Shown piece by piece: positions 34,746-36,395 of a DNA stretch of 64,000 bases. The notes beneath the pieces were generated by a model. That model saw nothing but the letters and a program-made list of their open reading frames with translations. It was not told where the DNA came from and made no database searches. Where the stretch lies: the NCBI GenBank assembly GCA_018826295.1, contig JAHJZX010000006.1, positions 1 through 64,000 on the forward strand, written 5' to 3'. Position 1 is the first letter of the stretch; every line of letters begins with the position of its first letter. The position numbers and the translations under genes were made by a program. The DNA comes from Gammaproteobacteria bacterium. GTDB lineage: Bacteria; Pseudomonadota; Gammaproteobacteria; Enterobacterales; Alteromonadaceae.

Positions 34746-34889
34746 ACTGCTTTACCTCAATTGGCTTGATGGGTTGAACTATATGGGCTGGCTGGCCGTT
34801 TTCAATCTTATCTGGCGGGTTAATTTGTAAGAAAAGGTGTCTGCAGTAGTGCTTTTGGCTACAATGGCCGCAACATGAAGGAGTTAGCC

Positions 34890-35591
34890 ATGCAATTATT
34901 ATTACTTAGCAGTTCGCGCGCCAACAACAGTGCTTATCTGGCACCTTATATCAGCTGGATTAAGCAGCATCTTCAGGCCACAGACGAGTTATTATTTATC
35001 CCGTACGCCGGTGTCAGTATCAGTTACGATGACTACCTGCACACGGTGCAACAGGCACTGGCACCGCATGGCATTAAAGTTAGCAGTATTCATCAATACC
35101 AGGATGCGCGTCAGGCTGTATTAAACGCCAAAGCTATCGCTGTCGGTGGTGGTAATACTTTCAAGCTGCTTTATCAGTTATATCAACAAGATATACTAAA
35201 TCTCATTAAGGAACGCGTAACCGAAAACATTCCCTATATTGGTTGGAGTGCCGGCTCAAACATTGCCGGAGCCACTATTCGTACCACCAATGATATGCCC
35301 ATTATTGAGCCGCCGTCGTTTAATGCGCTTAACCTGTTACCGCTGCAGCTAAACCCGCATTACACCGATTACCAACCAGAAGGCTTTCATGGTGAAACCC
35401 GCGATATGCGCCTGGCAGAATTTATGGCGTTAAACCCTGTTACACCTATTATTGCCCTGCCCGAAGGTAGTGCAATTAAACGCAGTGGCAACAGCCTGAC
35501 CTTGCTTGGTAGCGAGGGCGGCTATCTGTTTCTCGGCGGCAATAAAACGCCTCTGGCAGCGGATAGCGATTTAGCTGATTTCATGGAATAA
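34890..35591 (+). CDS. pepE: dipeptidase E (peptidase E, alpha-aspartyl)
   Basis: MQLLLLSSSRANNSAYLAPY; YIGWSAGSNIAG nucleophile. Start refined because AAGGAG SD lies at 34878-34883. Confidence 0.95.
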   Translation: MQLLLLSSSRANNSAYLAPYISWIKQHLQATDELLFIPYAGVSISYDDYLHTVQQALAPHGIKVSSIHQYQDARQAVLNAKAIAVGGGNTFKLLYQLYQQDILNLIKERVTENIPYIGWSAGSNIAGATIRTTNDMPIIEPPSFNALNLLPLQLNPHYTDYQPEGFHGETRDMRLAEFMALNPVTPIIALPEGSAIKRSGNSLTLLGSEGGYLFLGGNKTPLAADSDLADFME

Positions 35592-35608
35592 ACAGCCTGT
35601 AATTAGCG

Positions 35609-35713
35609 GGAGCGGTCGGTTTGCTCTAAACCAACCGTTGAAGGCATGGATGCCTGAGTCGAGCCTACAGGGATGTATTCACGGCGTGTTGGTGTGGGCA
35701 AACCGGCTGCTCC
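35609..35713 (+). ncRNA. Structured intergenic RNA element with two CsrA/RsmA-type GGA hairpins (candidate, family unknown to me)
   Basis: 16-bp outer stem 35609-35624/35698-35713; inner stem 35630-35635/35688-35693; hairpins AGGCA-UGGA-UGCCU (35642-35655) and UACA-GGGA-UGUA (35666-35677). Confidence 0.5.
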
Positions 35714-35720
35714 TGACACC

Positions 35721-36395
35721 TTATATCAACTGCTTTGTCAAATCCTGCGCTAACTGCTGATACTGCGCCAGTTCTGGCGCAAAAGGCACTACCGCCAGGC
35801 AAGGTGCACTAATACGTTGCTGCAAATCAGCAATATTTTGCTCCAGCAACAGCATTTGCGGGTCAACGCAATTGGCGACCCAACCAATAAGCTTACAACC
35901 GCTACGCTCTATTTCGCGCACGCTGAGCATGGCATGGTTTAAACACCCCAGTTTGACGCCTACCACCAATAGCACCGGTAAACCATGCTCTGCCACCCAA
36001 TCAGCCAGATAGCGCTGCTGGTTTAGTGGCAATAACCAACCGCCAGCGCCTTCAATCAGCAAGTGTTCGATATTCTGGCTTTGCCAATGCAGCAAGGCAT
36101 TGTTTAACAGCGTTTCGTCTATCGGCTGTTGCTCGTTTACTGCGGCCAGATGCGGCGCTACCGGCGCCTGATAACAGATTGGATTTATATCTTCATAAGG
36201 TAACGCGATACCAGAATACTGTTGCAACAGTAACGCGTCACCATTTCGACCCTGCTCGTCAGCGCCCGCCGCTATTGGCTTTACACCCAATGCAGCGATA
36301 TTTAGCCCGCTAAACCCTTGCAACAGTAAACTGCTGATGTACGTCTTACCCGCATCGGTGTCGGTTGCGGTTATAAATAGCGCTTTAGCTGCCAT
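35721..36395 (-). CDS. bioD: dethiobiotin synthase
   Basis: 224 aa, LFITATDTDAGKTYISSLLLQ; LIEGAGGWLLPL. Confidence 0.96.
   Translation of the reverse strand: MAAKALFITATDTDAGKTYISSLLLQGFSGLNIAALGVKPIAAGADEQGRNGDALLLQQYSGIALPYEDINPICYQAPVAPHLAAVNEQQPIDETLLNNALLHWQSQNIEHLLIEGAGGWLLPLNQQRYLADWVAEHGLPVLLVVGVKLGCLNHAMLSVREIERSGCKLIGWVANCVDPQMLLLEQNIADLQQRISAPCLAVVPFAPELAQYQQLAQDLTKQLI

Follow-up and report, generated by a model that had tools for sequence, protein, structure and literature searches.

The binding consensus of Rsm proteins is CANGGANG. For CsrA, the sequence RUACARGGAUGU presented in hairpin loops is quoted as the consensus (PMC7937890). Repeated GGA hairpins that are expected to sequester CsrA/RsmA are carried by CsrB/CsrC, RsmX/Y/Z, and Aln1a-c of Alteromonas (PMC5864184), which are the products of dedicated, strongly expressed sRNA genes. 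Palindromic DNA has also come up in work on these proteins: in P. putida, the RNA recovered by pull-down with RsmA, RsmE, and RsmI included that of a 'long palindromic region' where ISPpu8 inserts (PMC7937890).

Also described is a dispersed repeat, YPAL/RU-2, which has been reported for Yersinia and Erwinia carotovora and is about 168 bp in length. YPAL was described by De Gregorio 2006 (as cited in PMC2229807); according to that review, its insertions lie in or close to sites of dyad symmetry and are accompanied by target duplications of 3-26 bp, and it is transcribed with upstream genes, possibly altering the stability of their transcripts. The YPAL/RU-2 papers (PMC2229807, PMC2759123) describe neither covariation of an RNA nor a connection with CsrA nor a range across the class, and in open-licence PMC papers we found neither a report linking YPAL-like repeats or MITEs to CsrA nor a match to the exact core strings of the element studied here.

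In this study, we analysed a stretch of 64,000 nucleotides (the window) from an Alteromonadaceae genome (contig JAHJZX010000006.1), for which a preliminary description had proposed a structured RNA between a pepE-like and a bioD-like gene. On sequence comparison, the core of this element is homologous to the mobile Yersinia palindrome YPAL/RU-2 and to Rfam Ysr224. The RU-2 sequence published by Delihas contains the same core (AAGGATGGCGCGGCTCGAGCCTACATGGATGTATTTACGGCGTC) and both hairpins (PMC2759123); the two cores are identical bar stem and N positions, share the two-hairpin structure, and belong to repeats that are dispersed, intergenic, and multi-copy, whereas the flanks differ. No match in the window was found in Rfam at the gathering threshold. 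The Ysr224 model (RF02770) gave 129.9 bits on a Y. similis copy, 37.8-39.2 bits on two copies of the window's own genome, and 18 bits, on the minus strand and below the gathering score of 70, on the window copy. This model describes the opposite strand, with UCC in the loops; RF02770 appears to model the antisense strand of the mobile repeat, so that the many Ysr224 annotations may be copies of a repeat rather than of one sRNA gene. Unlike CsrB/CsrC, RsmX/Y/Z, and Aln1a-c, the element is dispersed; each copy has two sites, and a search for a promoter found none. The ISPpu8 palindromes resemble it by description, since they too are intergenic and their RNA was enriched in vivo with Rsm proteins (PMC7937890), whereas Pseudomonadaceae genomes of at least 5 Mb gave at most one covariance-model match each.

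Position and parts of the element

The window copy is a palindrome of 105 bp (35609-35713; all its parts are given on the plus strand) in the gap between a gene for a peptidase of family S51 (pepE-like; 34875..35591, plus strand; PF03575, 199.5 bits) and a convergent bioD-like gene (AAA_26; 35721..36395, minus strand; PF13500, 123.7 bits). It begins 17 nt past the pepE-like stop codon, and the bioD-like stop codon lies 7 nt beyond it. The strand that bears the GGA motifs (the GGA strand) is sense to the pepE-like gene and antisense to the bioD-like gene. No promoter or T-tract terminator overlapping 35609-35713 was found, which speaks against the discrete small CsrA-binding RNA considered in the preliminary description.

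Sequence and covariation delimit the 5' arm of the basal stem P1 (35609..35635), made of GGAGCGGTCGGTTTGC (35609-35624) followed by ACCAAC (35630-35635); its 3' arm (35688..35713), delimited by sequence and covariance model, consists of GTTGGT (35688-35693) followed by GCAAACCGGCTGCTCC (35698-35713). Read from the sequence, 35609-35624 and 35698-35713 pair at 16/16 positions, two of them as G-U. Hairpin P2 (35636..35661) contains the pairs C35636-G35661 and G35637-C35660, then AGGC/GCCT, and a hexaloop AUGGAU (35646-35651) with CANGGANG at 35645-35652 and the first GGA, a putative CsrA/RsmA site, at 35648..35650. Hairpin P3 (35663..35685) is built from GCC/GGC (35663-35665/35683-35685) and UAC/GUA (35666-35668/35675-35677), with a 3' bulge UUCAC and a hexaloop AGGGAU (35669-35674); here CANGGANG lies at 35668-35675 and the second GGA, likewise a putative CsrA/RsmA site, at 35671..35673, 23 nt from the first. 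The sequence check agreed with the 16-position stem, the inner stem ACCAAC/GTTGGT, and the hairpins AGGCA-TGGA-TGCCT (35642-35655) and TACA-GGGA-TGTA (35666-35677) that had been drawn before.

The fold of the region is not due to chance: its folding energy of -63 kcal/mol (z -6.6) was equalled in 0 of 200 shuffles, and a 24-nt core, GCCTACAGGGATGTATTCACGGCG, searched with up to 3 mismatches, had 13 matches in the own genome against 0 for the reversed-pattern control. The covariance model matched the window copy at 35608-35712 with 87.2 bits (E 4e-23), a score that is not independent because this copy is one of the 56 rows behind the model. The preliminary description had also looked to single-sequence folding; the minimum-energy fold of the window copy lacks both P2 and P3, and forcing the two costs 3.2 kcal/mol (median over the 56 copies, 0.9). 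The pairing probability exceeded 0.5 in 51/56 copies for P2 and in only 15/56 for P3. The two hairpins are thus supported by covariation among homologs, not by the energy of the window copy.

Copies and range of the repeat family

The own genome holds about 20 copies of the repeat, with 23 matches in a full-element BLAST. The core was present in 25/25 genomes of the genus scanned, in 2/16 genomes from other families of the order, and in 21/291 genomes of a class scan, with up to 366 copies per genome; this maximum, counted as exact cores, was reached in Methylotuvimicrobium buryatense 5G (NZ_KB455575.1), and 63 occurrences of the core were counted in Yersinia similis. When one genome per species was scanned, at least 80 loci came up under titles that give Gammaproteobacteria or nothing narrower than Proteobacteria, with Yersinia, Stenotrophomonas, Marinobacter, Shewanella, Halopseudomonas, Methylomonas, Ectothiorhodospira, and Idiomarina among the matches listed. 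Plasmids yielded a single weak match, in Yersinia similis. The repeat is patchy across Gammaproteobacteria, and the core scans of genome, genus, and class bear out the idea of the preliminary description that ACAGGGATGTATTCACGGCG is a dispersed repeat. Tandem arrays of five copies (period about 118) and three copies (period 121) occur in relatives.

The orientation of copies to genes was also compared. Genus copies (n = 43) adjoin gene 3' ends, and none lies in a divergent promoter region; where a gene 3' end was within 60 bp, 15 were sense and 24 antisense (P = 0.2). In M. buryatense, in which genes were called as simple ORF picks, 17 copies stood as >E> and 13 as <E<, some of them also upstream of genes. 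No sense-orientation bias was seen in either set, and the notion that the element was selected in sense as a 3' UTR sponge is not supported. A replication-strand bias in M. buryatense was rejected: the initial listing was all plus, and an 800 kb sample had mixed strands. In the five-copy array of a genus relative (L044 2982-3557, G019:C1), the GGA strand is antisense, between two minus-strand genes that we take, from reading their proteins, to resemble ilvA and ilvD, and alternate copies have no GGA in hairpin 1 (CATAGATG). Given the random orientation and this antisense array, GGA-strand transcripts may be rare for many copies.

None of the pepE orthologs showed a clean empty site: their pepE-bioD gaps contain this element in the same or in inverted orientation, a different palindromic repeat, or sequence that has diverged. 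In many genus relatives (L048, L051, L052, L054, L055, L059-L063), this convergent gap is filled by a second family of palindromic repeats (CGCCACAGAGTGTCTGAGCG...AGTTGCTGTGGCGAGCTT), which suggests that the site turns over between repeat families. In one of these relatives (L063), a piece nested in the gap bears CGTATGGAACG and AAACAGGATGTTT, which are GGA hairpins as well.

Covariation of the stems and the selected strand

Fifty-five gammaproteobacterial copies in one ungapped register, together with the window copy, made an alignment of 56. The 55 were chosen with a fixed core and a fixed GGA in hairpin 1, so these positions are untestable in that set, and their conservation was judged from scans without a GGA requirement. 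P1 is a near-perfect stem of median length 24 bp. For the structure of the preliminary description with P1 extended to 24 pairs, 83.2 percent of the cells in the 56 copies were paired, against 57.0 percent after shuffling. The covariation score of the 56 copies was 0.645 (shuffled, 0.184 +/- 0.010; slid partners, at most 0.223), and changes on both sides were seen in 24/24 P1 pairs and 7/8 P2 pairs. RNAalifold, supplied with no structure, returned P1, an extended P2 (columns 29-30 with 53-54), and P3 as GCC/GGC (56-58 with 76-78) plus UAC/GUA. Column 76 covaries with 58 and not with 29 (58-76 in further copies: C-G 142, U-A 10), which removes the CGU/ACG extension of the inner stem that had been drawn in the preliminary description. 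P3 shows the double changes UA>CG at 59-70 (UA 131, CG 25) and AU>CG at 60-69 (AU 132, CG 22) among 158 distinct copies, and a relaxed Pseudomonadaceae scan and the covariance-model matches have the hairpin 2 stem variants UACA/UGUA, CCCA/UGGG, UCCA/UGGA, and CACA/UGUG.

The mismatches in P1 bear on which strand is selected. A DNA cruciform would tolerate G-T and A-C equally, and an excess of G-T points to the GGA strand as the selected single strand. Isolated P1 mismatches comprised 44 G-T/T-G and 9 A-C/C-A; over all P1 cells there were 103 and 39, a ratio of 2.64, against 1.22 +/- 0.09 when the 3' letters were shuffled between sequences. Counted per sequence, 24 copies had an excess of G-T and 3 an excess of A-C. 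The GGA strand is thus the selected single strand, most simply as RNA. On these comparative grounds we regard it as very probable that the element belongs to a repeat family with a structure selected at the RNA level.

Conservation of the GGA loops

The loops are conserved where the stems vary. For hairpin 1, which lies outside the search pattern, the best hairpin upstream of the core had GGA in its loop in 73/85 copies; shuffled sequence gave 6-15 such copies and the reverse complement 2. For hairpin 2, searched with five loop positions free, GGA was kept in 85/88 copies among the matches listed, and all four bases occur at the N positions that flank it. The positions C61, A62, GGA, and G68 of hairpin 2 are nearly unchanging (158 distinct copies), as are C38, A39, GGA, and G45 of hairpin 1 in the alignment, in which the P2 stem covaries. 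CANGGANG is thus fixed in both loops while the stems change and the N positions drift, and a motif in which CA, GGA, and G are constant and the N positions vary is the Csr/Rsm consensus. The GGA hairpins fit both RUACARGGAUGU and CANGGANG, as CsrB/RsmZ-type sites do. The comparison with homologs, to which the preliminary description had looked for covarying arms and retained GGA loops, accordingly upholds its picture of a structured RNA with two Csr/Rsm-consensus hairpins.

The own genome encodes one CsrA. The protein is present in 20/21 of the element-bearing genomes; since 252/291 of all genomes scanned already have it, the co-occurrence is without power and was set aside as uninformative.

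Discussion

From the exact match to the consensus we infer that the two loops are CsrA/RsmA docking sites, and we consider CsrA their probable ligand. Somewhat less firmly, we lean towards the whole chain in which a YPAL-like mobile repeat carries a CsrA-docking RNA module. The element would be one copy of a MITE-like dispersed palindromic repeat of the YPAL/RU-2 type that has spread through Gammaproteobacteria, presumably by transposition, as the YPAL literature suggests. Its GGA strand would usually be transcribed by read-through from a neighbouring gene, and the RNA would fold, as the covariation supports, into the long basal P1, which ends in a three-way junction from which two hairpins extend, each presenting an ANGGAN hexaloop closed by C-G. 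At a spacing of 23 nt, a single CsrA dimer could bridge both loops of one element. The probable local effect would be on the processing or stability of the carrier transcript, here the pepE 3' UTR, and the copies together would probably add a small titration of CsrA.

The same conservation could in principle serve DNA. The element may be the remnant of a palindromic transposon whose hairpins are recognised as single-stranded DNA by a mobilising enzyme, in the way that IS200/IS605-type transposases recognise REP hairpins, the Csr match being a coincidence. The copies are mobile, occur in both orientations, and often form inverted pairs in Stenotrophomonas and Pseudomonadaceae; YPAL duplicates 3-26 bp at targets with dyad symmetry (PMC2229807); and a recogniser of single-stranded DNA would likewise select one strand. 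However, one and the same eight-position motif is conserved in two separate hairpins whose stems change freely, and the positions that vary within it are exactly those at which the Csr consensus is degenerate; the G-T tolerance of P1, with its median length of 24 bp, is more in keeping with RNA than with a DNA cruciform; and no transposase is tied to the element here. We regard this explanation as rather unlikely.

An RNA role need not involve CsrA: as has been suggested for ERIC, YPAL, and NEMIS, the element could form a stem-loop in 3' UTRs that shields mRNA from decay or serves as a substrate of RNase III. This would suit the near-perfect P1 of median 24 bp, the position of the genus copies next to gene 3' ends and never in a divergent promoter region, and the co-transcription of YPAL with upstream genes, with its possible effect on stability (PMC2229807); but it leaves the conservation of CANGGANG in both loops unexplained, M. 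buryatense copies are found upstream of genes as well, and we think it improbable. Still further down we place a dedicated small RNA gene of the CsrB/RsmZ kind that sequesters CsrA, which we disfavour strongly: two consensus hairpins per copy and tandem arrays of 3-5 copies in some relatives are in keeping with it, whereas the failure to find a promoter or T-tract terminator at the element, the limit of two sites per copy, and the multi-copy, mobile occurrence without orientation bias are not.

If CsrA does bind the repeats, many gammaproteobacterial genomes would contain a mobile layer of CsrA sites, among them that of the well-studied methanotroph M. buryatense with its 366 exact cores, and such sites could be discarded as repeats in regulon predictions and CLIP analyses. 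This would connect a global posttranscriptional regulator with a mobile element and offer a testable reason why a palindromic repeat that is otherwise cryptic is so deeply conserved. More speculatively, and in our estimation at somewhat less than an even chance, the most conserved part of this mobile element family may be a CsrA-binding RNA module by which it uses or manipulates the host Csr system selfishly for the stability, silencing, or movement of its own RNA, seeding hundreds of CsrA sites in some genomes.

Several variant arrangements were seen among the copies. In Stenotrophomonas and Pseudomonadaceae (L224-L250, L306-L351), copies often stand in pairs, inverted and divergent, that are mostly separated by about 40-240 nt, and in Stenotrophomonas other palindromic repeats lie in these gaps as well. 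In M. buryatense (L253-L292), the 5' half of many copies is chimeric and includes a hairpin in inverted orientation, GCCATCCATGGC, which suggests recombination between oppositely oriented copies. A longer variant in the own genome (L005, L008, L011) has one more hairpin, AAATTCGTCAGGAACGAATTT, on the 5' side of the two standard ones, a possible third GGA loop.
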